Assembly: GCA_963575745.1 (NCBI GenBank)
Contig: CAUYUJ010016158.1
Span: 136,501-200,500, forward strand
DNA: 64,000 bases
Direction of reading: 5' to 3'
Origin: Prorocentrum cordatum
Lineage: Eukaryota > Sar > Dinophyceae > Prorocentrales > Prorocentraceae
Position 1 is the stretch's first letter, and every line of letters begins with the position of its first letter. The notes beneath the pieces were generated by a model. The model was not told where the DNA came from. It saw only the letters and a program-made list of their open reading frames with translations, and did no database searches. The position numbers and the translations under genes are program-made. Shown piece by piece: positions 11,911 through 61,713 of the stretch.

Positions 11911-11929
11911 CATGTGGGCACACCGTTCA

Positions 11930-12900
11930 CGCGTTTCGTGGCCCCATCGGGAGCTCGACTTAAGGTCCCAGTGGTGCCGTCCGCATGGCGGCCCCGCCCA
12001 ATTTCGGCACACCTCGCGCGTTTCGTGGACCCGTGGGGGGCCCGACCTAAGGTTCCAATGGTGCCGTCCGCATGGCGGCGCCGCCATGCTTCAGCGCACC
12101 GCCCACGCGGTTCGTGGCCCCACAAAGAGCCCCACCTACGGTCCCAATGGCGCCGCCCGCATGGCGGCGCCGCACAAGTTTTGGCACATCCCTGACGCGC
12201 TTTGTGGATCTATAGGGGGCCCAGCCGAGGGTCGCAACGGCGCCGCCCGCATGGCGGCGCCGCCCCATTTCGGCACACTTCTCACACGCTTCGTGGCTCC
12301 AGAAGCGGACTCCACCTCAAGTCCCCATGGCGTTGTACGCATGGCGCCGCCGCCCCATTTTGGCACGCCCTTCGCGGTTCGTGGCCCCATGTGGGGCTCT
12401 ACCCGCGGTCGCAATGGCACCGTCCGCATTGCGGCACCGCGCACTTGTTGGCACATCCGCCACGCGTGTCGTGGCCCCAGAGGGGGCTCCACACAAGGTC
12501 TCAGCGGCGCCGTCCGCATGGCGACGCCGCCCCATGTCGGCACGCACCTCGCGCGCGTCGTGGCCCCATCGGGAGCTCCACTTACGGTCCCAATGGCGCC
12601 GTCCGCATGGCGGCGCCGCCCTATTTCGGCACGCCCCTCGCACGTTTCGCGGCCCCATAGGGGGCTTCACCTAAGGTCCCAGTGTCGCAGCCCGCATGGT
12701 GGCTACTCCACCGACGGCCCCAATGGATGTTGTCGCGCGTGCCCGCCGCACCTACTTCGGCACACCCCTCGCACGCTTCGTGGCCCCATAAACAATTCCA
12801 CCGACGGCCCCAGTTGCTGCCGTCGCACGCCCCCACCGCACAATGCTTGGCACACCCCTCACGCGCCTCGTGGCCCTATGCTACAGGGAGTTCCTCCGAA
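11930..12900 (+). repeat. R1 module b: 89-bp satellite array 1
   Basis: About ten tandem units. The landmark CCGCATGG falls at 11981, 12068, 12157, 12247, about 12337, 12424, 12514, 12603 and 12692, giving spacings of 87-90. Most units contain GGCGCCGTCCGCATGGCGGC, continuing to a CGGCGCC arm that can pair with the first GGCGCCG, so each unit can form a GC-rich hairpin. The rest of the unit carries TTTCGTGGCCCCAT and CTCCACCT words. Confidence 0.9.
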
Positions 12901-15550: not shown

Positions 15551-15741
15551 GGCTCGCGAAAGTCGAGGGCTTCAGGGCTGGGGCTCTGGCTGAGGAGCAC
15601 GCTGGCGACCTAGACTTCTTGCGGGAGCTGCAGGACGTCATCGGCGAAGACCTCTCGGAGCGTCGCGACGTGCGGTGGTGCTGTCTTGGCGCCCACCCTT
15701 GGGCGCCGCACAGGAGCGCGCACGCGTCCATGACCGTCCGC
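15551..15741 (+). CDS. Gene A exon 2, continuation in shifted frame
   Basis: Frame continuing RLAKVEGFRAGALAEEHAG aligns with B's CIVCRVEGAPTGGACGPN, supporting a frameshift between the two parts in A. The 3' end is set at a phase-0 GT (GTCCGC at 15736 or GTGGAC at 15742) because both flanking exons in B meet in phase 0 at the equivalent junction. Function unknown. Confidence 0.4.
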
Positions 15742-25379: not shown

Positions 25380-26440
25380 TCGGCTGCCGTCGCCGCCCCC
25401 CGCGCGTTTCGTGGCCCCGCAAGGGGTGCCCCGCCCGAAGTCTCAATGGCGCCGCCCGCGTGACGGCTCCGCCATATTCCTGCGCACAAACGCACGCTCC
25501 GTGGCCCCGCATGGGGTTCCTCAGATGCAGCTGGCGCCGTCCGCGTGGCGGTGCCGCGCAATGTCGGCGCGCCCGTCGCGCGCTTCGTAGCCCCATAAGG
25601 GCGCCCGCCTAAGGTCCCAGCGGCGCCGCCCGCATTGTGGCGCCGCCCAATTTCGGTTGCGCACGCCGCACGCTTCGCGGTCGCATAGTGGCCTCCGCCG
25701 ACCGCACACTGTCGCCGCCCGCATGGCGGCGCCGCCCGCCCTATGTCGACACGCCCCTCGCGCGCTCCGTTGCCTTATGAGGGGGCTTCACCTCAGGTCC
25801 CAACGGCGCCGTCCGCATGGCGGCGCCGCCCCACTTTGGCGCGCCTCTCACGCGCTCCGTGGCCGCGTGAGGAGCTTCGCCTAAAGCTTGGCGCAGTCCG
25901 CATGGCGCCGTCGCCACATTTCGACGCACCTCCCGCGCGCTTCGTGGCACTATCGGGAGCCCCACCCAACGTCCAAATGGCGCCGTCCGCATGGCGGCCC
26001 CGCCACCTTTTGGTACCCCTCGCGCGCTTCGTGGCACCATGGGAAGCTCCATCCAAGGTTTCAATGGCGCCGCCCCCATGGCGGCACAGCCCCATTTCAG
26101 CACGCCCCCCACACGCTTCGTGACCCCATGGGGGCCTCCACCTGGGGTCGCAATGCCCACTGGCGCCGTCCGCATGGTGGCGACTCCACGGGCGGCCCCA
26201 ATGGCTGCGTTCGCATGTGCCCACCGCACATATTTCGGAAGACCCCTGCATACACTTCGTGGTCCCATCGGGAATTCCACCGACGGCCCCAATGGGCCCC
26301 AACAGTTGCTTTCGCATGCGCCCAACGCGCAATTTTGGCACACCCGTCACAAGCTTCGTGGCCCTACAAGGAGGTCCTTCGAATGCGTTCCGCGCAGCGA
26401 TGGCACTCACAACTGCACATGGTGTGGTCCTTCGCCATGC
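25380..26440 (+). repeat. 89-bp satellite array (third), with R1-like 3' junction
   Basis: Ten to twelve diverged units of the 89-bp satellite, with GCCGTCCGCATGGCGGCGCC in several. The array ends with CCTTCGAATGCGTTCCG and GGTCCTTCGCCATGC, the junction sequence that follows the satellite in R1 at 12895 and 29235; the rest of R1 module c is missing. Confidence 0.8.
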
Positions 26441-27631: not shown

Positions 27632-30390
27632 GATAGTTGTCCCAACAATCCTGTGGTGTTGGATCCTCGTTTTGGAGAGGCAGCCCCACGTCCCACTCCC
27701 CCATTCCTCCCTCCTCCCACTACCCCTTCTCCACCATCATCATCATCATCACAATCAGCACCATCACCATCACCATCAGCAGCAACACCATCATCATCAG
27801 CATCGCCATCATCATCACCATCAACACCAGCAACAACAACACAACCATCACCACCATCTGCATCATCATTGTCGGAATCACCATCATCATCATAGTCATT
27901 GGCATCCTCATCTTCACCAACATCAACATCATCAACAATGTCACCATCATCAACCGTCATCGTCACCGTCATCGCACTCGTCGTCATCAGCATCATCATC
28001 ATCACCACCAACATCCTGATCACCATGAACATCAGCAACATCAACATGGCCATCATCATCACCAACATCGTCATCATCATCACCATCACCCTCATCCTTA
28101 TCCTCGCTGTTACCGTCACCCTCATCGGCATCCATTGTGGCACGCTCGTCACACGCCTCTTGGCCATACTGGGAGCTCCACCTGAAGCCATAGTGACGCC
28201 GTCCGCATGGCGCCGCCGCCCATTTTGGCACACTTCTCAAACGCTTCGTGGCCCCATGAGGGGCTCCACCTGAGGTCCCAATGGCGCCATCTGCACGGCG
28301 GCGCCGCCCAATCTCGGCACACCCCTCACACGTTTCGTGGCCCCACAAGGCACAAGAAGTCAACCCGCTGGCCCGATGGCGCCGCCCGCACGGCGGCGTC
28401 GCCCAATTTTGGCACGCGTTTCGCGGCCTCATATGGATCTCCGCCCAAGGTCCCATTGGCGCCGCCCGCACGGCGGCGCCACCCCATGTCGGCATACCCC
28501 TCACGCGCTTCGTGGCTCCATGAAGAGGGCGCCACCTTAGATCCCACTGGCGCCTTCCGCACGGTGGCGCCGCCCCATGTCGGCACGCCCCTCGCACGTT
28601 TCGTGGCCCCATGGGGAGCTCCACCGAAGGTCACAATGGCGCCGTCCGAGTGGCGCCGCCGCCCCATGTCGGCACATCCCTCACGCGTTCCGTGGCTAGG
28701 GCCAAGGGGGGCCCACCGAATGTTCCAGGGGCGCCGTCCGCATGTTGGCGCCGTCTCATTTCGGCACACCCCTCACACGTTTCGCGACCCCATAAGAAGC
28801 TCCACCAAAAGTTCAGATGGTGTTGTCCGCATGGCGGCGCCACGACCAATGTCACAGTGGCGCCGTCCGCATGGCGGCGCCGTTCCATTTCGGCACGCCC
28901 CCCACACGTCTCGTGGCCATATAGGGAGCTCCACCTGAGCTCCCAATAGCGCCGTCCGCATGGCGGCGCCGCCCAATTTCGGCATCCCTCACGCGTTTCG
29001 TGGCCCCATGGGGGGCTCCACCTGGGGTCCCAATGGCGCCGTCCGCATGGTGGCTACTCCACTGACGGCCCCAGTGGCTACGTGCGCATGCGCTCACCGC
29101 ACCTTTTTCGGCGGACCCCTCACACGCTGCGTGGCCCCATAGGGAATTCTACCAACGGCCCCAGTGGCTGCTTTCGCATGCATCCACCGCGCAACTTTTT
29201 GGCACACCCCTTCACACGTTTGCACTATATGGGGCTCCTCCGAATGCGTTGCACGCAACGATGGTAACATTTGCATATGGTTGGGTCCTTCGCCAGGCTA
29301 ATTGAGACGGTGAGTTGGAACGTGGGCTGGGCCAGTGGCGCGGGATTTGGTTTTCCGAGAAGAGGGTCGTTCCCCGAACAAAGAGCTACGAACGTTTAGA
29401 CATAGCTCGCATATTTTCCTGTGGCCGAAAACGTCACCGCATGTCGGGAGCTCACAGAGTAAGATGCCCCCCCCCCCCCCCCACACACCCCACCCACCCT
29501 CAGACCACACTCCACCTCGGGGGCACAGAAAAGTGTGTTTCGCAAAGTAACTAACAGAAACATCGGCTTTGCATTTGGATGTTCGTTCGTTGTCTGTGTG
29601 GGCCATCTCTTCGATGGCTGCGGTCGGACGTGCTTGCAATTACTCTCAGAATACGTGCCCATCAGAATTCGCTGAGTTTCGGCATCGGGGGGGGGATCCA
29701 TTGCTTCGCGTTCGCAGGGGGTACTTGAGATGTGTGTTCTCGGCCACCAGTTGTAGCGCACGGGATTCAGCATACATGTTTGCAACGGTTGGTGCCAGAA
29801 CGCGTTGCGCATTCTCGTGCAAGGCGTGCTCTCGGCCATCTGTGGTAGCCTTCCGCATTCAGAAAATTTTGTTTTGCCACGAGTAGCACCGAAACGCGTT
29901 GGCAGATTCGCGCGAGATGCGTCCGCATCCGTTTTGAGGTTCGAAGTTTTATTCCCCCCCCCCCCTGGGAGTAAAGTTTTACATCCGCCCTCCCCTTTTG
30001 TGGGGAACCCCTCTTGGGTTCAGAGCAAGCACTGGTCGGGGATCTGCAAACGCGCGCCCCCATAAATGGACCCCAACACAGTACTTCGACTGAGACCCTA
30101 GGCCATGTGCACTACGACATAAAGCCCCTAAGATACGCATTCTCGTAGTCTGGATCTCACAGAGACACATCGAGCCTGAGACCCTGAGGTCTTAATTCTC
30201 GAACGGCCCCGAACCTTTCCGATCTGACCGGAGGGGGCCCTAGACTCTAGACCCAAGTTCCGTGACCTTCCATCCCTGGGGAGTCTTCCTTCCAGGGGAT
30301 GCGGTGCCATTCTGTCCAGGGGGATGATATCGTGGGTCTGATGATCGGTGGCGTGGCCAAACATGGCGTATTGTGTCGGCTTCTCCACAG
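27632..30390 (+). repeat. Intron 1 of the three-exon gene, filled by R1 copy 2
   Basis: The 2759-base intron is almost entirely one R1 element: lead (27634-27690, which also occurs inverted at about 10797-10865), CAT/ATC tract (27730-28125), 89-bp satellite (28195-29130) and the unique 3' module (29230-30275) with AGCAAGCACTG at 30024-30034. The exon-intron edges are CAG/GATAGT and CCACAG/GAGAAT, so CAGGA stands at both edges. Confidence 0.75.
28195..29130 (+). repeat. 89-bp satellite array 2 (inside R1 copy 2)
   Basis: Units with landmark CCGCATGG or CCGCACGG near 28203, 28291, 28388, 28468, 28558, 28646, 28738, 28828, 28868, 28956 and 29043. Mostly about 89 bases apart, with one short unit (28828-28868). 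The GGCGCC hairpin arms are kept in most. Confidence 0.9.
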
Positions 30391-49841: not shown

Positions 49842-50243
49842 GACCGCGAAAAGTATGTCGCGGAATGGGGCACTGCTATAAACCGATCAACGGCCGACCG
49901 CCGTGGCATCGAAGCGTCTAGAAACGAAATGACACGAGCATCCACTAAAAAATGGGTTGGTGCTGAACTCAACGCTGTTTGGAAGCACTCACAAGAGCAA
50001 TGGCAGGCTGAGAAGCGCTGCGGGCTCAAGTGAGTCATTCCGTGAAGCGATACAACAGGACCTGAGAGCTCAGAAGCACCGCAGACGCATGCATGCCAGC
50101 GGCGGCTGAAAGGCGAGAGGCTGAAGGTAAACATCGCTGGCTATCTGCAAGGCGTATAAGAACTCGCCAAGCAAGCAGAGAAATAACCGAACGCACGCTC
50201 GGAGCAGCAAGCTGAGAAGCATCGCTGGCAGAGCAGCAGCCTC

Positions 50244-52136
50244 TCATTTCAAGCTTTCTCCTGACGGGTGGGTTTCGAGGATTCTGCACTTCTTGGCTGA
50301 GTCCGGTGTCTTTGTCCACGCATTCATCCGCTTGTGCTCGCCAGATTGCTGAAGCTCTGTGCGCATGCCCAGTGTTCTCAATTTCTTGATGAAGTACTGC
50401 GCCTCTATCGCCGCTTCCTCGTCGATGTGTGTTACGCTGTGCACAATGATAGCATCCTCTGAACAGCCTGTAATGAGCAACAGGCAAACCCTGTGCTTCG
50501 CTTTGTTCGGCGGATCCATCTTGAAGGAGAGCAAGTTGTCTATGGAGCAATAGCCGTGAATGGTCATCGCATGTAAATTTTCATCGTCGGTGACGTCCGT
50601 CACTCCTGGAGTAGACACGAGGAAACCACTCGCAGTGGAGACGCATCGGGACTTCTGTGTCGTGCGAACCAGAGCCAATGCCAAGTGGCAGTTCCGGGAA
50701 AGCTGAGAAGCATCACCTTCGCCACTCGCCGTGGGATACTGCACGCGCATGCTGTAGAAGGGGCAAGGACGTATCTCAGAGAGGTGTGCTGCGAGCATGG
50801 CGTCCTGGCTCTCGCGGCACTGTTTCAGGATCTCTAAGACTATGTTGTAAGAGGTATTGGGAGCGCGCGACAGCTGGAGCGGGGATGCTGCAACTACAGC
50901 GGTGTTCACAAAAGTCCGCTCAAGCGTGTCATCGTCAGATCCTGCAGGCACATTGCGGACGCGTCGAATTATGCGACAATTGCCCAAAGGAGGGAAGGAG
51001 ATAGCTCTCTCTTGGTGGACCTTCAGAAACTCGACCATGGAATCAATACCACTCAGTGCGAAGGCTGCCGCTTGGGAGACGGCTACTTTGCAGGAACCAC
51101 TGAAATCGTGAGCAGTAGTAGTAAAGAATACGCGCTGACCTTTGCTCTCCACGACAGAGTCGCCAGGGTCCGGCTCCTCGAGCCTCACTCCGTTCACTTG
51201 CAACAAGTGTGGCAAATTTGCGCCCGGGTCTTCCGGCGCCATCTCCAGAAAGGCGCAGCAGGACACGAGAGCGTCTCCGGTGGGAACTTGTGAAGCGTGA
51301 TCTGGATTCCATGTGACCTCATGGGCGGCCGTGAGCTGCTCTCGATCCTGCGCGAAGTTTTCTTGCGCCGCCAGGTCTTTGAGCTTAGTCATTCTGGGAC
51401 AAGAGCATGCGTCATCGACCGCGCGATCCTGTGACAGGTTCAGCTCCAACTTGCCATCGAATTTGGCCGCTACGTTGAGAATCAGCAGCGGTTCGCCTGT
51501 GTGTGATCTGCATTTCTGTATGTTAGTTTCTCCCCAGACAGCAAGCACAACCTCCGCGGTCTTGGACTGCGTCGTCTGGCTCCCGTCCACCAGGTGGACA
51601 TTTGCCACTGCACCGTGGCCCATGGGAGTGCGAGTGTCTGAAACAGAATGAACCACGGCCATGACATCGAAGGAGCGACGCGACTTGTTGTTCATCATGT
51701 CTGCCACAGTAGTCAGTGGAGCTGGCACCGATGCCAAGGATTTCTTTTCTGGAGAGCTCTGGAGGACAGGAGTGCACGTTGTGCGCTTGAGATCGACCAC
51801 CGCTCGAACAGACGTGTGGATATAAGCGTCCTGCTGCTGTCCGTCCAGGCCAAGCTCGGAGAGTTTCCATGCTGTGAGTGGACGGAATTTGTCTAGAGCA
51901 GCATGCACTTCTGAGGCAGTTCCTTTGAGGGTCGCCTCGCAATTGTGCTCGGAGCTCGTGCCTAGCAGAATGCAGGTGAATCGTATAGCGTCGATATGCT
52001 GGCCATTGCGCTTGCTTTTGTAGGAGTACTTGAGCTCCCTTGGCATGTACACCCGGACTAAGAAGTCTTGGGTTTTAGCACTGCTCTTCGTGAGAGTGCC
52101 CAGTGGGGACGTTGGCCGTTCTGCAGTAGTAGCCAT
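50244..52136 (-). CDS. RPA-like OB-fold protein (tentative)
   Basis: A 630-residue uninterrupted minus-strand frame, ATG at 52136 (MATTAERPTSPLG), stop TGA. About residues 150-240 resemble a single-stranded-DNA-binding OB fold of replication protein A type: SFDVMAVVHSVSD, a VHLVDGSQ strand, VVLAVWGETN, then LLILNVAAKFDGKLELN. In RPA-like proteins these match the strand order of DNA-binding domains A and B. The rest has no clear motif; the C-terminal third contains HIDEEAAIEAQYFIKKLRTL. The dispersed motif is embedded in frame at 50702-50716 (GDASQLSR). A weak spliced-leader relic lies about 145 bases upstream. It is the best-preserved gene in the insert. Alternative: an unrelated dinoflagellate protein with a similar strand pattern. 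Confidence 0.5.
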   Translation of the reverse strand: MATTAERPTSPLGTLTKSSAKTQDFLVRVYMPRELKYSYKSKRNGQHIDAIRFTCILLGTSSEHNCEATLKGTASEVHAALDKFRPLTAWKLSELGLDGQQQDAYIHTSVRAVVDLKRTTCTPVLQSSPEKKSLASVPAPLTTVADMMNNKSRRSFDVMAVVHSVSDTRTPMGHGAVANVHLVDGSQTTQSKTAEVVLAVWGETNIQKCRSHTGEPLLILNVAAKFDGKLELNLSQDRAVDDACSCPRMTKLKDLAAQENFAQDREQLTAAHEVTWNPDHASQVPTGDALVSCCAFLEMAPEDPGANLPHLLQVNGVRLEEPDPGDSVVESKGQRVFFTTTAHDFSGSCKVAVSQAAAFALSGIDSMVEFLKVHQERAISFPPLGNCRIIRRVRNVPAGSDDDTLERTFVNTAVVAASPLQLSRAPNTSYNIVLEILKQCRESQDAMLAAHLSEIRPCPFYSMRVQYPTASGEGDASQLSRNCHLALALVRTTQKSRCVSTASGFLVSTPGVTDVTDDENLHAMTIHGYCSIDNLLSFKMDPPNKAKHRVCLLLITGCSEDAIIVHSVTHIDEEAAIEAQYFIKKLRTLGMRTELQQSGEHKRMNAWTKTPDSAKKCRILETHPSGESLK

Positions 52137-52280
52137 GATGGCCCACTTTCAGAGACAGTGATGCGGGCACAGCGGCGCAGGCTGATGAGCACCGTGCAGA
52201 GCACGGTGACACAGGCTGAGTAGCCCCGTGCAGGGCACGGTTGCGCGTGCGATGGTCAGTCGCGTAGAACAAAAGAGCTT

Positions 52281-52301
52281 TTGGAGCCGGAATGGCAACG
52301 T
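52281..52301 (-). other. Possible degenerate spliced-leader relic before the RPA-like gene
   Basis: On the minus strand, ACGTTGCCATTCCGGCTCCA plus one base matches the spliced leader at about 15 of 21 positions. It lies about 145 bases before the ATG at 52136, in the right orientation. Confidence 0.4.
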
Positions 52302-53122
52302 GTGGAAGGTCCTGGGAGTTGCATGCATGGTTAAGAAAATGCTATGCTTGTTGCGCTCTGAGAACTTGCATTTCAAAGAGCTCGCGTTTACAGCGCGCTC
52401 CTTGTAGCGAAGAGGAGATGCTGCGCCTGCCACGGTTTGGGAGTGTGCTGGGCAAAGCGTCTGCAGTGTATGGGTGCGTCTGTTTATGTGTGTGGTGTTT
52501 ATACTCGGCGTTTATTGTATGTGTTTGTGAATGTATGTTATGTTTGTGCTGTGTTTGTGCATGTGCTGTGCTGTATGCGAGTGCTGTGCTGACAGGAAGG
52601 AGAGTGAGAGAAGGAGGTGATGGAGGAGGAAGGAATTACACAAGGAAGCTCGGTTTTAATGCACGCCTCGGCGATGTCCTCAATGATTGTATATCTACTT
52701 CACCTATCCCTATGAGTCATGTGTTGAAACGATGGTCTGCTATGAATTGATGTATTTTGTTTCTGGAAGGAAGACGCGGTCATAATAATCGAAGTGTCTG
52801 CATAGGAGACAGTGCTGCCCCATCAGCATCGACGCATTCAGAAAAGCTCTAAGTGCATGCAAAGGAGATAGCGCTGCCCAATCAGCACCGAAGTGTTTAG
52901 AAGAGGATTTGAAGGCTGAGAAGCACCGCAGGCAAAAGTCAGACAGTTGGTGCAGTGAGGGGAAATGTTGCCACATCAGCACAGGGGCGTGTAGAAGAAC
53001 TGAAAGTGTTTGCAAAGGAGACGGTGCTGCCCCATCAGCACCGACGCGTCGACGAAAGCAAAGGCAGGCTGAGAAGCACCGCGGGCCAAAGTAAGGTGGC
53101 TGCGGCGGTGAGGGCAGGCGCT
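52302..53122. other. No supported gene
   Basis: TGTG-rich at 52460-52580. From 52780 to 53100 a unit of about 75 bases (GGAGACAGTGCTGCCCCATCAG type) recurs three or four times; two units end with the dispersed motif (52915 and 53068). Minus-strand frames through it (ADWAALSPLHALRAF) come from this repeat. Confidence 0.5.
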
Positions 53123-54718
53123 TCAGCGGCTCGCCGCCTGCTGCGGCGGCATCTTGGGCACCCGCTCCGGCACCCATTGCAGCGCGTCATTCTTGTGCTC
53201 GTTCCAGAAGCACAACATTGCTGATATGGTGCAGACAGGAATTGATTTTCCATTACCGCCGGAGCCGAGCGTTAACGATATCGCTTTCAAAGCCTGCTGT
53301 TCCCGAGTCCTCGTGGTCATGCCGGGCATGATGTTTCGCAGGCCCTCGCGAGAGCCATGTGGAATTGGCCACCGACCAGACAAAGCCAGGAGGTCTCCAG
53401 GCAAGAACTGCGGCAGCATCAATTTGGAACTCAGCCCAGCCAGCAAGGTGATTTACAAGAGTCGTTTGCATCTGTATGCTCCACACCCGTCGACCCTGTG
53501 CTCGCGCTTGTTTGCTAATTGGAAGACCAGGTCGACAAGGCTGAGGAGCGCCTGTCGCCGCTGGATTGTTGTCAGCGAAGATGCGCAGGAGGAAAGCAGG
53601 CGCGCCATTTTGTTGCCGACAGCCCGCATGAAGTGAGCAAGCTGCATTGCAATGTTGCCGCGACAGATTTTCCCCGGGTGCTGACCACCACGGTGCGCAA
53701 CCTCTGCGGTGTCGAGGTAGTGCCTCAGGCCTCGCAAGTTGTTGGTAGCCAGGTATGGCGCTGCAGCATCTACAGTTGCTGCCAAGCCCGTCGTAGCAGC
53801 AATGTAGATCAGACGAACGAGATGGCGGCAACGCATCAAAACACTCGTGCTGCGTGAAGTCTGCAGGTTGAGAAACACCGCGACACCTTTTTTCCAACGA
53901 TTCTTGCAATTTGCGTTGGTCGTCGGGGTCAAATGGTTGGTATACGGGGTTCTCTGGAGATCGAATACCTGAGACGAATTCAGACAATAGTTCGAAATTC
54001 GTATTACCATGCAGATAAGCGATGCCTGAACATATGCAATCACGAGGCTGCTTAGCTGCACAAGCTCCACATGCAACAATCACCCCTTCCTTTGCAGGCT
54101 GACAAGCACCGCAAACACGTGAGCGAACCAAGGCATCTGTGTACAAGCAGCGTTCAAAGTTGTTTGTTGGAGTTCTCAAACCCACTAGCAGCGACGATAT
54201 GACGTTCAACTGAAGAGAAACTCTGACAGCATGTGTGCACCCGGAGCGTTTTGCCGTTCTCCGTGCAGCACGGCGGCGACTTGTTCTCGCTCGACCAAGG
54301 AGGCCAGAGGCGTGTGAGAACGGGATAAACTCGGCAATATATTTTTTAGTTCGCGCGTGCGTGTCGGCATGAAGAGAATTCACAGAGGTTCTGAAGAGAT
54401 CCATCAGAAACTTTCGGGAAGGTCCGAAAGACCTTTCAGCAGCGCGAAGCGGACGAGGAGGTCCACAAACGCCTTCGTCCGAGCACACAGGCGAGCGCCA
54501 TGGATGCTTCAACCAAACTGGCGGAGTGAGCGAAGCGATTGAATAGTTGCAGTCCTCGGAGTGGCTAGGTCTTTCTTTGTCATGCCAGGGGCGAGCTTTG
54601 GTCGAAACCGTTTGCCCATCGCTAGCTGTCTGCAGAGCACGAGAAGTCGCCAGGCAGGCTGAGAAGCACCGCAGGGTGTCCTTCGGCAGCGCATTCAATA
54701 TGTAGAACAGAAGGAATG
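53123..54718 (-). pseudogene. Minus-strand gene with Cys cluster and P-loop, broken or intron-rich
   Basis: Protein-like sequence in three successive frames. (i) About 54720-53860: TNNFERCLYTDALVRSRVCG, a C-x2-C-x10-C-x2-C cluster (VCGACQPAKEGVIVACGAC), then LLSEFVSGIRSPENPVYQPF. (ii) About 53850-53453: HLVRLIYIAATTGLAATVDA, LRGLRHYLDTAEVAH, ALLSLVDLVFQLANKREH. (iii) 53446-53123: SREGLRNIMPGMTTRTREQQ, then KAISLTLGSGGNGKS, a Walker A-type P-loop (GxxxxGKS), and CTISAMLCFWNEHKND. Together they suggest an ATP-binding protein with a zinc-binding part, but no Walker B or helicase motifs were found, so a helicase is not claimed. Frame changes may be short introns or lesions. Confidence 0.4.
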
Positions 54719-54719
54719 G

Positions 54720-54740
54720 ATTGAGCCGAAATGGCCCGAC
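54720..54740 (-). other. Possible degenerate spliced-leader relic before the P-loop gene
   Basis: On the minus strand, GGGCCATTTCGGCTCAA matches the spliced-leader core GCCATTTTGGCTCAA at 14 of 15 positions; the 5' flank does not match. It sits directly upstream of the minus-strand protein-like region (LNALPKDTLRCFS). Confidence 0.5.
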
Positions 54741-54869
54741 CAATGAAATGCACGATGAGGGTGTGAACGCAAGCGTAGCTGGCAGCATAGCTGAAGGCAC
54801 TCCTGGCAATCGCAAAGCGATATATGGAAACGAGATCGTTATTTGGAAGAGTTTTTCCGAATGAATGGA

Positions 54870-55930
54870 TGCATCACTAGATATAACTCCAAAAGAAACA
54901 TGTTTCAAATGATTTTTGAAATGACGTATTGATTATATAAATGTATTTTGAAATGAGCTCCTGTGAAAATGCATGAAGGTTTATTTGACACCCAGCTATC
55001 ATTGGATGTGAACAAAAGGGGGCACTGCTATCAAATGTTTTATCTCTGCGGGAGAAACCACTTTGAGAACTGAATGTGTAACTGTTCGAACAACATGTAT
55101 ACGTAAGCAGGGATGCAACTATACTCTGAAACATGTGGCAACGAAACATTTTCCATGTATTTACTTACATGATGTATTAAGTATATGATTGTATGTTGAA
55201 ATGAGCTGCTGTGTAAATGGATGAAGGTTTTTTCGAAACCCAGCAATCATTGGATGTGAGCAAAAGGGGGCGCTGCTATCAACTGTTTGTCCCTGCGGGA
55301 GGATCTACTTTGAGAACTGTCTTTGTAAATGTTTGAACACCATGTGGACGTAATCAGGGATGCGAGTATACGTTGGAACATGTGACAACGAAACACGTTT
55401 CCATGGATTTTGCTCTACATGACGTATTAATTATATAATTGTATGTTGAAATGGGCTGCTGTATACATGAATGAAGGCTTGTTTGAAACCCAGCTATCAG
55501 TGGACGCGAGCAAAAGGGGACACTGCTATCAACTGTTTTATCTCTGCGGGAGAAACCACTTTGAGAACTGTGAGGAATGTTGTGTACACGGACAAAAGAC
55601 GCATCGAGGATGAAGTCCCGAGGATGAAGATCTTGGGGCACGAACTCGATACTCCAGTGATACCCCGATCGAGAGTTCACGATTCGGGAACCAGGTCTCC
55701 GAGATCCTGTGATCTCGGATCCACGACGGCTCGAGAATCTGGAAGCCTCGATTAGGAAATCTTTCGAGGATCAAGTGCACGAGGATGAAGATGAAGACAA
55801 ACGCTTCAGAGTTGATCGCCTCCGCGATCGAGAGTCGAAGGTTCTCAAGGCGAGGATCCGAGATTGTGTGTTCTCGGATTGACGAAGCCTCGGGAATCTG
55901 GGAGCCTCGATCGCAAGATCATTGAGGCTC
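54870..55930 (+). repeat. Right long direct repeat, three tandem AT-rich units
   Basis: Units of about 250 bases start near 54925, 55175 and 55425 (TGAAATGAGCT, AAGGTTT, CCCAGC, CACTGCTATCAACTG, GGGAGAAACCACTTTGAGAA). They are followed by the GAGGATGAAG part (55605-55810) and a further worn copy of it (55820-55925). Matches the left repeat at 48880-49740. Confidence 0.85.
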
Positions 55931-56369
55931 GAGAGCCTTGCTGAAGCGTTTGATGACTGCGCTCCTGCGAAGTGTTTTTCTGGCACGGACGAGGAGCGCG
56001 AAAGAGTGCAGCGTGCGGAGCGAAAAGCCAGCAAAAGCGGCAAGCTAAGAAGCGCCGCAGACACTCGCAGGCAAAATGCCAACGCGGCCGGGCAGCTCAT
56101 TACATTTCGAAGTAGTATTCCAATACCGCAGGCTGAGAAGCACAGCGGGCATGCAGAGTTGGATCCATCACCTCTCCTGTTCGTCTTCTAGGAGATCGCG
56201 CCAGTCTGGCAGCGAACAGAAGCGGAAAGCGAGCCAAACCTGCAGGCTAAGAAGCACCACAGACACTCGCAGACAGAAATTCAACGCGGCCGTGCAGCGC
56301 ATCACTTTTGGAATTAGCATTCCAACACCGCAGGCTCAGAAGCACCGCGGGCAAGCAGGCCTGGATTCA
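55931..56369. other. Region with four copies of the dispersed motif
   Basis: No coding signal. Motif copies at 56044, 56132, 56246 and 56334 lie in two similar units of about 200 bases (CACTCGCAGGCAAAATGCC against CACTCGCAGACAGAAATTC; both then AACGCGGCCG). Here the motif is clearly non-coding: one copy on the minus strand reads through a stop. Confidence 0.5.
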
Positions 56370-57470
56370 TCACCTCTCCTGCTCGTCTTCCAGGAAATCG
56401 CGCCAATCTGGCGGCTGCCAAGAATCGATGATGCGCCGGGATCCACCCCCCGTGCTGCCGCCGATGTCGAGGTAATCACCGTCTTTCGTGCGCAGACGGC
56501 CATGTCCCAGCGCCACAATCGCTCTGTTGCGGTTCTTGAGCAACTCGCCGCTCTCCCACTTCTGCAGCACATCCCATTGCCTGCGAGTGAAAGTGGCATC
56601 GGCTGCAGGCTGACTAGCACCGCGACGCTGGAGCTCTTGCCGATGGCGATGGAGCCGCTCACCTTCGTTGTAGCGCGCAATGGCCTCCGACTTGTCATGA
56701 TGGAGGCGGCGGCGCTCTCCCTGGGAGACCTGGTCACGATCGGCGAGCTCTGCGGGTGCATCACTGGGCTCGACGTGCAAGGCTCGCTGGAGCATGTCAA
56801 CGTCGAAGCGGCCGGAGAAGGCCAGGACCTCCTAGATCTGCTTCGTCCCGGAAACGCGCTGCAGATGCCGGCACCATCGCTTGCGCTTTTGCTCCCGGAG
56901 GAAATTAGTGAGGCTGCCCTTGCCTTTTCCTTTGCATTTGCTCGCAGGCTGATGAGCACCGCGATCCTGCTGTGCTGAAGTTTTTCCCTTCGCTTTCCTT
57001 TTCTCGGCATCTCGGTTCTGCAGCTGAACCTGGAAGTCAGAACTTTCGTACTCTTCCCGAGCACGTTTGACAAGTTCCGCGCGCTGCTCCTCAGCAAGGA
57101 CATGGCGCATGTCCGTAATGTTCTTGCTTCGGAGGAAGTCGTGGCGGATCCGCAGAACAGCCTGAATGGCCCGAGCAGTCTCTTCCTGCGACGCATAGGC
57201 TGTGTCGCAGTCATCGCCAGGCTGAGGAGCACCAGCGGTCGCCCTCTTCATGAAAAGCAGAAGGCTGAGCTGATGGAGAAGCTTCGGATCGTAGCTCTCC
57301 TCGTACATCTGCTCCCAATACTCCCTCATCTCACGGTGCAGTTCCTGCGCGCGCTGGTGAACTTCATCGTCAAGCTCCTTGCGCTGTGGCGAAGGAGAGC
57401 GGCTTGGCGAATTTCCCCAGTCGACTTCATTCTCGGCTTGGTCTGAAGGGGTCGCTGACGACGAAATCTC
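56370..57470 (-). CDS. C-terminal region downstream of the EEP-fold domain, with in-frame TAG
   Basis: Minus-strand frame beginning without an ATG at about 57470 (SDQAENEVDWGNSPSRSPSP), continuing QRKELDDEVHQRAQELHREM and a charged helical stretch to GTKQI, then TAG at 56834-56832. The same frame goes on EVLAFSGRFDVDMLQRALHV to TFTRRQWDVLQKWESGELL and ends LEDEQER at 56370. The character (Ser/Pro linker, long charged helices) is the same on both sides of the TAG. Motif copies 56609, 56948 and 57221 are embedded in frame as GASQPA, GAHQPAS and GAPQPG. No enzyme motif. It probably forms one protein with 57427-58387 after a frame change near 57460. Confidence 0.4.
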
Positions 57471-58074
57471 CTAAGGCAATCTTCCGCTTCTTTGTCTCCT
57501 TCGGCTGAGAAGCACCAGGGAGAGTAATGGTGATTGCAACAGCATCGGGGGAATCGTTGCGCATGCCACGGTCCATGTACGATGCGCCAACAGCGATGGG
57601 TTTGAACTGCGCAGTGGCCCCAGAGACCGCCACGTTGTCACCTTGGCGATCTTGTGGGTGCGCAAAGACGTCCCACAACTGCTCGTCATCAGTGTGGCGC
57701 TGCAAAGCAACGCGGGTCTGTGTGGACGTGAGGTTGTTGTCGCCGACAATGATGCGTACAACTGGCGCGTCCACTTGCGGACCTTGAAGGCTGTCCAGGT
57801 GGAGTCGGAGGGGCCTGACCGCGCGCTGTCTGGTCAGCACCGTGGGCGGCTTCGTTCCGCAAGCGATGTGCAGGTTGGCAGCAATCAAATGAATTATACC
57901 ATGGCCTTCTATTTGCACATCGAACCGTGTGATCGCAGCGTCCACAGGTCTCCCGATGTCGATTTGATCGATATACGTGTCCCCCTGCAGGGAAACATCG
58001 ACAGGCTGAGAAGCACCGCCGAATCCCCACAGGCTGAGGTAGTTGTCAACCTCGGAGAAGCAGACTGTCGCCAA
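57427..58074 (-). CDS. EEP-fold (endonuclease/exonuclease/phosphatase) domain, second part
   Basis: Contains IIHLIAANLHIACG, a long helix, VRIIVGDNNL (Asp-x-Asn of the fold), then YMDRGMRNDSPDAVAI, in the place where the family has the final SDH/Asp-His motif; the His is not evident. These residues bind the metal and phosphate in EEP enzymes, a superfamily including DNase I-like, AP endonuclease and LINE endonucleases. Motif copies at 58005 (GGASQP) and 57504 (GASQPK) fall at the edges of the domain, in frame. With the missing His, activity is uncertain. Confidence 0.5.
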   Translation of the reverse strand: MATVCFSEVDNYLSLWGFGGASQPVDVSLQGDTYIDQIDIGRPVDAAITRFDVQIEGHGIIHLIAANLHIACGTKPPTVLTRQRAVRPLRLHLDSLQGPQVDAPVVRIIVGDNNLTSTQTRVALQRHTDDEQLWDVFAHPQDRQGDNVAVSGATAQFKPIAVGASYMDRGMRNDSPDAVAITITLPGASQPKETKKRKIALGDFVVSDPFRPSRE

Positions 58075-58387
58075 ACGGTTTCGTCAGGATGTCTGCCGCG
58101 TCAGCCATCGCTTTGCTGAGGCCTTGCCGAAACGCACCGACTTCGCAAGCATATAAGAGATCAGCATCACCGCCCTGGACGATTGTGGCGCACACGCGGG
58201 CAAAGTTGGAGAAGTGAGCGCGAGACTTTTTCCCAGTCATCATATTCTGATCGAGTCCGAAATTGAAGGAGGCGATCGTGAGAGACGCAGGCTGAGAAGC
58301 ACAGCGATCGGTCGCGGCCGCGGGCTCCTGTCGGCCTTCGTTCGCAGGCTGACAAGCACCGCGAGAAGCTGACGCGGAAGATGCCAT
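58046..58387 (-). CDS. EEP-fold domain, N-terminal part
   Basis: ATG at 58387 gives MASSASASRGACQPANEG, with two motif copies (58348 and 58291) in the first 35 residues, then LTIASFNFGLDQNMM and DADLLYACEVGAF. The ASFN strand and the Glu in the following block are the first two metal-site motifs of the EEP fold. It ends GDSLLLRG and continues in another frame (57427-58074); the change falls near 58060, possibly a micro-intron. Weak spliced-leader relic about 50 bases upstream. Confidence 0.5.
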   Translation of the reverse strand: MASSASASRGACQPANEGRQEPAAATDRCASQPASLTIASFNFGLDQNMMTGKKSRAHFSNFARVCATIVQGGDADLLYACEVGAFRQGLSKAMADAADILTKPFGDSLLLRG

Positions 58388-58726: not shown

Positions 58727-58762
58727 CTACTACTAGTACTAGTACTACTACTACTACTACTC

Positions 58763-58795
<33 letters not shown>

Positions 58796-58796
58796 G

Positions 58797-58828
<32 letters not shown>

Positions 58829-58837
58829 AAACTACTG

Positions 58838-58885
<48 letters not shown>

Positions 58886-59460
58886 GTACTACTACTTCTA
58901 CTATTACTATTACTATTACTACTACTACTAGTACTACTACTGCGATTTCTTCTACTACTACTACGAGGGGGGGCTACTACTACTACTACTACTACTATTA
59001 CTACTACTACTACTACTACCACTACTACTACTACTACTACGACTACTACTACAACTACTACTACTACAAATACTACTACTACAAATACTACTACTACTAT
59101 TACTACTACTACTACTTCTACTACTACTACTACCATTACTACTACTACTACAGGTACTACGGCTACTACTACTACTACTACTACTACTACGACTACTACT
59201 ACTACGACTACTACACGACTACTACTACTACTACTACTACGATTACTACTACTACTACTACTACTACTAGTACAACAACAACTACTACTACTACTTCTAC
59301 TACAACTACTGCTGCTACTACTACTACAACAAGTACTACTACTACTACTACTACTTCTTCTTCTACTACTACTACGAGGGGGGGCTAATACTACTACTAC
59401 TACTACTGTTACTGCTACTACTACTACTACCACTACTACTACTACTACTACTACTATTAT

Positions 59461-59535
<75 letters not shown>

Positions 59536-59625
59536 CACTACTACTACTACTGCTACTACTACTGCTACAACTACTGCTACTACTGCTACTACTACTACTA
59601 CTACTACTACTACTGCTGGGGGGGG
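58727..59625 (+). repeat. ACT/TAC microsatellite, about 0.9 kb
   Basis: Nearly continuous ACT repeats with scattered GTA, GCT, ACG and AAC interruptions and two identical GAGGGGGGGCTA interruptions (58964-58975 and 59377-59388). All long Leu, Thr, Tyr, Val and Ser frames here are artefacts. Confidence 0.95.
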
Positions 59626-61260: not shown

Positions 61261-61713
61261 GCGTGGGCAGAGGCTTCGACAAAGTGCAACTTGGGGCAGT
61301 TTCTTGAACAACAGTGGTCGCAGAGGCATCGCACAATCATGAAGGACGACTGCGCCCCTGTCCAGTCTGCCGCTGTTCTCATCACGAAGTGCATGGAATC
61401 AGGCTACTGCATATGTCAAGGGGATGGGTTGCGCAGGTGGAAGTTCAGGAACAAGTTCCTGGCACATCTCAAGGCTACCTGCCCCCCGCGGTCATCAATG
61501 CGAAGCATGCTGGTTGATGGATGCATCGTCTGCCGAGTCGAGGGCGCGCCGACGGGGGGCGCCTGTGGCCCCAATCTGGAGTTGTGGTTTCACATTGCTG
61601 CGATGTACTTGAGTCCTTTTCGGCCGACTCTCAGCACGCTGCGGAGGACCGCTGATCAACCTGGAGACGATCGTGACGAGCGCAGGGTCAGGCTGCAGGT
61701 TGCTACGGCACTC
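61261..61713 (+). CDS. Gene B, second half, exon before intron
   Basis: Homology to A exon 2 begins at FLEQQWSQRHRTIM and runs through CMESGYCICQ, KFRNKFLAHLK, CIVCRVEG and FHIAAMYLSPFRPTL. The 5' edge is approximate: acceptor candidates are GGGGCAG at about 61290-61296 and GGGCAG at about 61264-61269. The exon ends RLQVATAL before GTAAAT at 61714. A Cys-rich patch (CMESGYCICQ, then DGCIVCRV) could bind metal. Function unknown. If the 5' half at 45.88-48.5 kb belongs to the same transcription unit, it is about 12.7 kb away. Confidence 0.55.

Follow-up and report, generated by a model that had tools for sequence, protein, structure and literature searches.

A repeated hairpin with a conserved apical half in reading frames and flanks of multi-copy gene families of Prorocentrum cordatum: a putative mRNA mark

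A 64,000-nt stretch of the genome of the dinoflagellate Prorocentrum cordatum (GenBank assembly GCA_963575745.1, contig CAUYUJ010016158.1, positions 136,501 to 200,500 of the forward strand; hereafter the window) contains a block, at 50.0 to 58.4 kb, in which a short motif recurs along one strand, inside genes and between them. Our comparisons indicate that this motif is the apical half of a hairpin of about 24 nt, and at a probability of roughly 60% we interpret it as a sense-strand mRNA hairpin that marks the transcripts of multi-copy gene families and is bound by a putative factor. The parts of this interpretation differ in strength: that the hairpin exists and is under selection to fold is very probable, and for the transcript-marking role we see about even odds.

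In the preliminary description of this DNA, about 20 same-orientation copies of an 18-base motif were noticed at 50.0 to 58.4 kb and none elsewhere. A scan for GCTGAGAAGCACCGC with up to three mismatches on both strands of the window returned 25 matches, four of them exact, compared with 3.40 expected (standard deviation [SD] 1.93, maximum 10 among 100 shuffles). The plus strand held 23 of these matches, at positions 50,007 to 58,362, which bears out the reported cluster. One GCTGAGAAGCACCGC match lay outside the block, at 61,638 (three mismatches), one within it was on the opposite strand, at 57,081, and the adjoining 10-kb stretches on both sides (L047 and L048) had none at the same mismatch limit. 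An unfiltered model of the hairpin gave 24 matches of at least 15.5 bits, all on the minus strand, with 23 at 49,999 to 58,366 and one at 15,581 to 15,607; 14 of the 49 training rows of this model, including the copy at 15,581 to 15,607, came from the window, and window scores are thus inflated. The model missed one of the 23 plus-strand copies, at 57,699 (three mismatches). The motif first described is therefore real, but its conserved letters, as read on the minus strand, are GGTGCT-NN-TCAGCC with two free positions. Since the block's genes run along the minus strand, the motif reads GCGGTGCTNNTCAGCCTG in the sense direction.

The motif is abundant throughout the genome (4.13 Gb in 21,875 contigs searched), where its hairpin copies are denoted by the pattern GGTGCTNNTCAGCCT. 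Chance-level counts, or equal use of both orientations, had been set beforehand as outcomes that would speak against the motif. As to counts, CAGGCTGAGAAGCACCGC occurred 6,414 times (3,174 on the plus and 3,240 on the minus strand; reversed control, 0), and GGTGCTNNTCAGCCTGC occurred 5,321 + 5,186 times by strand (reversed control, 5 + 5). Orientation was further examined in 18 stretches of 8 to 10 kb taken from the genome, 16 around motif places and two beside the window. Together with the window these 19 sources held 106 exact-core copies followed by T, distributed over 16 sources, and within each of the 16 only one strand was used. Over the whole genome the two strands are used equally, but each of these copy-holding stretches keeps to one.

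Read as sense RNA, each unit consists of GG, a bulged U, GCU, a loop NNUC, and AGCC, on a lower stem of four pairs whose letters are largely free, differing between copies yet remaining paired. Near-duplicate copies were removed by flank identity, at a limit of 0.65 for the pair counts on 87 and 49 copies and for the held-out test, and of 0.7 for the codon counts, wobble tests, and orientation and phase counts. Among 87 dissimilar copies with at most two core mismatches, Watson-Crick pairs numbered 51 at L3-R4 (23.6 expected), 48 at L4-R5 (29.5), 58 at L2-R3 (42.6), and 47 at L1-R2 (40.7); L5-R6 and further pairs, as well as shifted registers, were not above chance in this set. RNAalifold, given only the alignment of 49 dissimilar copies, returned ..((((((.(((....))))))))).., which is the structure proposed beforehand. 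Under this structure 90.5% of the cells were paired, against 81.0% after shuffling, and 38 cells were changed on both sides, against 13.2 (SD 2.7), neither value being reached in 500 shuffles, while registers slid along the alignment paired only 28 to 50% of cells (+1, 50%; +2, 37%). L3-R4 and L4-R5, paired in 39 and 36 of the 49 copies, used all six standard pairs, and the mean contiguous lower stem was 3.16 pairs long, compared with 1.89 (SD 0.14) in shuffles.

The pairing result does not hinge on one gene family. When training and held-out copies were taken together, split by family, and relieved of copies whose post-core base was neither T nor C, it stood at redundancy limits of 0.65, 0.55, and 0.50. 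The family here called EEP-like (endonuclease/exonuclease/phosphatase; the name was given by eye, and Pfam and PDB searches gave no support for it) had by itself 57 of 72 Watson-Crick cells, against 41.6 expected, and 32 of 44, against 23.9 (p = 0.003), for the 11 copies left at the strictest limit; the other families had 131 of 228, against 95.3 (0 of 5,000 shuffles). At homologous sites in paralogs, compensatory changes were seen at alignment columns 500 (G-C, G.U, and C-G) and 1379 (C-G and A-U). The conserved RNA signal that had been listed among the possible readings of the motif thus gains a concrete form, a hairpin with compensatory changes that persists within long reading frames.

These stems also bear on the suggestion of a mobile short element, which in its sharpest form would be a selfish mini-hairpin: a brief palindrome of DNA or RNA that propagates by being copied and that coding sequence can bear because the residues it contributes are six, small, and in frame. 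Local duplication and turnover fit that suggestion: tandem copies lie 27 nt apart in paralogs of the L034/L038 type and 72 nt apart in L044, three 17-nt units adjoin one another in L036, and sites present in one protein are absent from a relative (e.g., P0014 versus P0012). Plain copying, however, would not produce lower stems that differ between copies, draw on all six pair types, and stay paired by compensation, with both sides changing together at homologous sites. In addition, the gaps at empty sites vary from 4 to 12 residues (the script accepted 4 to 14), such that no fixed inserted unit is seen, and each stretch keeps to one strand, its non-coding flanks included. We therefore consider the selfish element unlikely, even though it is the strongest of the competing explanations.

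Whether the hairpin forms in RNA or in DNA can be approached through its wobble pairs. The G.U pair that stands beside a G-C pair and the bulge was kept in 42 of 49 copies, and among these copies the lower stem (L1 to L4) contained 20 G.U but nine A.C combinations. Mean fold energies were -9.5 kcal/mol for the sense strand, -7.4 for the antisense strand, and -7.65 for the sense strand with its right flanks swapped, and the four apical pairs were present in 41 of the 49 predicted folds. The G.U data, the fold energies, and the strand uniformity favour a sense RNA over DNA. A hairpin with its function at the DNA level, such as a signal in single-stranded form for the rolling-circle transposition of Helitron-like elements, is quite improbable. 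A faint domain link exists, in that a Pfam scan of 18 proteins, only two of which passed a cut-off (the other through leucine-rich repeats in L039), found DUF6570 in L042 (E = 8.5e-6, 26.7 bits, cut-off 24.3), and Helitron_like_N was seen below its cut-off in L041 (E = 0.014). DUF6570 goes with Helitrons. The conserved G.U pair and the excess of G.U over A.C nevertheless argue against DNA action, as do the wobble tuning inside frames and the many irregularly placed copies per gene, where such a signal would be a single one near an end.

Codon use within reading frames is consistent with selection on the RNA. Copies in long frames mostly read G-A-x-Q-P-A, with x free but its third base T in 34 of 38 cases. 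At 38 dissimilar GA.QP sites in open reading frames (ORFs) of at least 180 amino acids (aa), the codons were GGT 27, GCT 35, and CCT 34 times, against 20 to 28% for these codons in the carriers' background (third-base T, 1,860 of 8,952); the counts carry some ascertainment bias because the stretches were chosen through the exact motif. The wobble base of codon 6 was complementary to the first base of codon -1 at 17 of 24 dissimilar sites in frames of at least 400 aa (7.0 expected, SD 2.1), at 21 of 31 in frames of at least 180 aa (9.2 expected), and at 30 of 44 protein-defined sites in frames of at least 60 aa (12.2 expected), some of which are probably not genes. None of 20,000 shuffles reached the observed value at any cut-off, and five control pairings were null in frames of at least 60 aa. 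Since the codon-6 base is synonymous, protein-level selection does not explain its complementarity to codon -1. Fourfold third bases among three paralogs (proteins 57 to 65% identical) were unchanged at 27 of 33 positions in the motif and 196 of 384 outside it, summed over three non-independent paralog pairs.

These codon and wobble tests speak against a motif that matters only as peptide, and a G-A-x-Q-P-A linker under protein-level selection with frozen codon choice appears very improbable. Many database homologs do keep the peptide, and one phase prevails, the G-A-x-Q-P reading being found for 62 of 71 copies in ORFs of at least 400 aa and for 25 of 32 after redundancy removal. Under a linker, however, it is hard to see a free x with its third base fixed on T, a synonymous base that pairs with a base seven codons upstream, copies that extend into downstream flanks, or L036, where one copy is read as AVLLSL within a frame of 436 aa that has the periodicity of coding sequence in its substitutions. 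That copy upholds, as an exception, the preliminary view that copies are read in different phases, and the common phase limits it; the RCFSAC readings in the window that had been cited for the same view lie either in flanks or off the frame that comparison supports.

The uninterrupted frames also speak against the splicing interpretation, in which copies are micro-introns or introner seeds that are spliced out. On the minus strand GTGCTNNTCAG starts with GT and ends with CAG, and introners and non-standard splice sites have been reported from dinoflagellates (PMC10666404 and PMC11453091). With its 11 nt, however, the proposed unit is not divisible by three, and splicing it out would disrupt the frame; frames of 689 to 734 aa cross five to eight copies each; and the conserved pairing runs past the supposed ends. 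Moreover, the peptide is kept in database proteins. In a pattern scan that counted partial words, all 18 relatives of the L034 protein had a G-A-x-Q-P-like word, as did 24 of the 45 found for an L042 protein; for the window's 630-aa ORF, 14 of its 24 relatives kept the word at the homologous site. The source contigs of these database proteins are mostly 1 to 4 kb long and may or may not be transcripts. On frame and on peptide retention we judge micro-introns to be highly improbable. Introners resemble the hairpin in that many copies of a short sequence occur in genes of large genomes; they are introns defined by inverted repeats of 8 to 20 nt and direct repeats of 3 to 5 nt within 30 bases of the intron ends (PMC10666404), whereas here pairing joins the two halves of one unit of about 24 nt, there are no defined intron ends, no constant repeats were seen at protein-level empty sites, and copies stand within open frames and persist in the proteins.

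Several observations weigh against the mRNA hairpin and its role. Although their overall pairing is poor, the +1 and +2 slides yielded 25 and 24 doubly changed cells (38 in the proposed register), and the number of pairs with change on both sides was 4, close to the shuffled 3.3 and reached by 204 of 500 shuffles; the shuffles of the 49 copies leave the relatedness of the copies in place. Pairs are broken in paralogs at columns 1014, 1652, 1724, and 2111, and several hairpins are broken or degenerate (e.g., at 50,694 and 56,036). The held-out test was weak: 101 new exact-core copies were reduced to 26 dissimilar ones once those resembling the training set had been removed, and these had 44 of 104 Watson-Crick cells against 35.8 expected (p = 0.026). 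Its cleaner subset (16 copies with T after the core, R1 = T) gave 30 of 64 against 27.5 (p = 0.24), and earlier subsets gave p = 0.10 (19 copies, 5 dissimilar) and, with G.U counted, p = 0.045 (41 copies, 7 dissimilar). The held-out copies were mostly obtained with patterns whose loop contained G or A, and the G pattern had 790 matches against 146 for its reversed control, so that single-copy matches include chance ones; in addition, the near-fixed letters at L1-L2 and R2-R3 leave this test little to vary. Taken singly, only the L034-L037 pair was significant in the fourfold-site comparison (p = 0.014; the others, 0.15 and 0.08), and the third base of the variable codon x was not significant in the paralog test. 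Rfam 15 had no match in the window at the gathering threshold, and at E ≤ 1 a single sub-threshold, unrelated match in 49.9 to 58.5 kb. Finally, the presence of the hairpin in mature mRNA and its binding factor are both putative.

With the UC of the loop and the apical stem fixed, the bulged U nearly so, and the lower stem largely free, the unit looks like a protein site in folded RNA. In the mechanism that we propose, selection very probably maintains the fold of the hairpin in transcripts, whether it lies in a downstream flank or in a reading frame, where it appears mostly as G-A-x-Q-P-A; a putative protein would read the loop, the bulge, and the apical stem; several hairpins on one mRNA might act together, in a cooperative or graded manner; and the hairpins could thereby govern what becomes of transcripts from a few multi-copy families with long unbroken frames, be it their stability, translation, export, or location. 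Because the carriers are such families with long unbroken frames, a stability, export, or control mark is our guess. A broader idea, which we advance tentatively and hold at somewhat less than even odds, is an RNA address code, in which thousands of hairpins in frames and flanks of unrelated multi-copy families would be served by one dedicated reader, with GAxQPA inserts shaped over long times in more than one species.

The features of the block are collected in Table 1. The segment at 56.3 to 58.4 kb belongs to a gene family that is present in many copies and comprises several subfamilies; in a search with a distant relative as query, 62 of 2,925 candidates were scored, and those 62 lie in open frames mostly of 732 to 734 aa. 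This family has many near-identical copies, partly in tandem arrays (e.g., G000:C98:24,000-40,000), and while the window's copy is frame-broken, L037, at about 90% identity, holds a 731-aa open frame. The part at 52.9 to 54.8 kb has a relative in L036 at about 80% identity. When eleven ORFs (ten from copy-holding stretches plus the window's 630-aa ORF) were compared by BLASTP, they formed seven groups with no similarity between groups at E ≤ 1e-3. An idea, formed by eye, that the 630-aa ORF is RPA-like found no support in searches. An alignment of 19 sequences (the open frames of L034, L037, and L044 of this genome and 16 of 18 database relatives, P0013 and P0017 being left out) had no confirmed relatives in genomic and viral contig collections. 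P0018 is at most 40% identical to the genome among the matches listed, and we therefore take it to come from another organism.

Table 1. Genes and hairpin copies of the block, in window coordinates; hairpin scores are those of the model described above.
Feature	Position	Strand	Score or relatives
EEP-like gene, limits approximate; frame broken, pieces in different frames	56370..58387	-	L037, L034, L046 open frames of 731-734 aa
Gene 2, homolog of L036 (436-aa frame with GSGGNGKS); frame changes in window copy; limits approximate	53100..54300	-	
630-aa ORF, conserved uncharacterised family	50244..52136	-	24 database homologs, 53-85% identity
Hairpin copy, EEP-like gene (GACQPA)	58340..58366	-	33.9 bits
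Hairpin copy, EEP-like gene (CASQPA)	58283..58309	-	30.4 bits
Hairpin copy, EEP-like gene (GASQPV); compensatory change at paralogs' homologous site (column 500)	57997..58023	-	34.1 bits
Hairpin copy, EEP-like gene (GASQPK)	57496..57522	-	29.0 bits
Hairpin copy, EEP-like gene (GAPQPG); paralogs C-G to A-U at homologous site (column 1379)	57213..57239	-	32.5 bits
Hairpin copy, EEP-like gene (GAHQPA)	56940..56966	-	30.9 bits
Hairpin copy, EEP-like gene (GASQPA, serine codon AGT)	56601..56627	-	27.5 bits
Hairpin copy directly past stop codon; site in 7/7 aligned family sequences	56326..56352	-	35.9 bits
Hairpin copy, downstream flank	56238..56264	-	27.5 bits
Hairpin copy, downstream flank, 202-bp tandem duplicate	56124..56150	-	34.8 bits
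Degenerate hairpin copy, downstream flank	56036..56062	-	16.6 bits
Hairpin copy upstream of gene 2	54650..54676	-	32.2 bits
Hairpin copy in gene 2; degenerate at same L036 place	54090..54116	-	32.6 bits
Hairpin copy in gene 2; L036 counterpart in another phase (AVLLSL)	53859..53885	-	26.4 bits
Motif-like stretch in gene 2 (...RRQALLSL...); possibly just ordinary coding sequence	53532..53558	-	24.5 bits
Hairpin copy, gene 2 downstream flank	53060..53086	-	32.8 bits
Hairpin copy, gene 2 downstream flank	52907..52933	-	29.8 bits
Hairpin copy upstream of 630-aa ORF	52207..52233	-	21.1 bits
Hairpin copy upstream of 630-aa ORF	52173..52199	-	28.9 bits
Degenerate copy within 630-aa ORF (GDASQL; some homologs GGASQP or GGAPQP)	50694..50720	-	16.6 bits
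Hairpin copy past stop of 630-aa ORF	50203..50229	-	30.4 bits
Degenerate copy, downstream flank	50060..50086	-	15.5 bits
Hairpin copy, downstream flank	49999..50025	-	23.1 bits

Other repeats were observed as well. A second repeated hairpin, GGTGCTGATGGGGCAGCACC-like, occurs in the downstream flank of gene 2 (window positions 53,041, 52,982, 52,888, and 52,829 on the minus strand, partly at 59-nt spacing) and in two copies in L036:6071-6130 (+); the fold energies of its strongest copies are -15.5 and -12.9 kcal/mol, and one copy is broken. A separate family in L035:5120-5959 (-) and L038:2635-3768 (-) is built of 30-nt tandem repeats like GGAAQPAVPG, several of which include a stretch resembling the hairpin core. 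The window also holds a 248-bp unit repeated 2.6 times in tandem (54,921 to 55,571), a long CTA microsatellite (58,727 to 59,614), and several scattered arrays whose GC-rich units resemble one another and measure about 87 to 90 bp (11,917 to 12,876, 25,800 to 26,142, and 28,171 to 29,054).

Should the mRNA hairpin be confirmed, thousands of such structures would lie inside the frames of unrelated families, with RNA pairing dictating synonymous codons in a large genome, and they would present a clear case of an RNA signal that adds recurrent peptide inserts. They would also offer a concrete handle on post-transcriptional control, which is said to dominate in such organisms (review PMC12787238). 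A text search of the literature with motif strings and the peptides GASQPA and GAPQPA returned two papers with unrelated titles, in each of which one DNA string occurs once, and the element is undescribed in those titles and opening lines of abstracts on dinoflagellate in-frame repeats, hairpins, Prorocentrum repeats, and structured RNAs that the search covered, most subscription papers and bioRxiv being outside it.

Secondary structure kept by compensatory change, a general trait of protein-binding regulatory mRNA hairpins, is found here as well. The iron-responsive element and the operator of phage MS2 likewise combine a small stem, one bulged base, and a short conserved loop, with other letters in loop and bulge and usually one or few copies per mRNA. 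In the CAR-E export elements of intronless mRNAs and the DSR motifs of fission yeast, several short sense-strand copies decide the fate of a transcript, but these motifs are described as linear sequences and not as hairpins. Repetitive hairpin-forming elements of sponge mitochondria (PMC2800124) are also dispersed, short, and present in many copies; they are mitochondrial and intergenic, in contrast to hairpins that occupy frames and gene flanks, keep to one strand per stretch, and have differing but paired lower stems. Closest in its way of working is the Smaug recognition element (SRE) of insect mRNAs, which consists of several short stem-loops per mRNA, with a non-specific stem and a conserved loop, in reading frames and 3' untranslated regions alike (the reading frame of Hsp83 has eight, the 3' untranslated region of nanos two; PMC4053848). 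The SRE loop is CNGGN0-4, whereas the consensus loop here is NNUC, accompanied by a bulged U, a G.U pair, and a fixed apical stem above a largely free lower one; because the loop differs, the P. cordatum hairpin is not an SRE, even as it shares with that element the arrangement of several short stem-loops along one mRNA.

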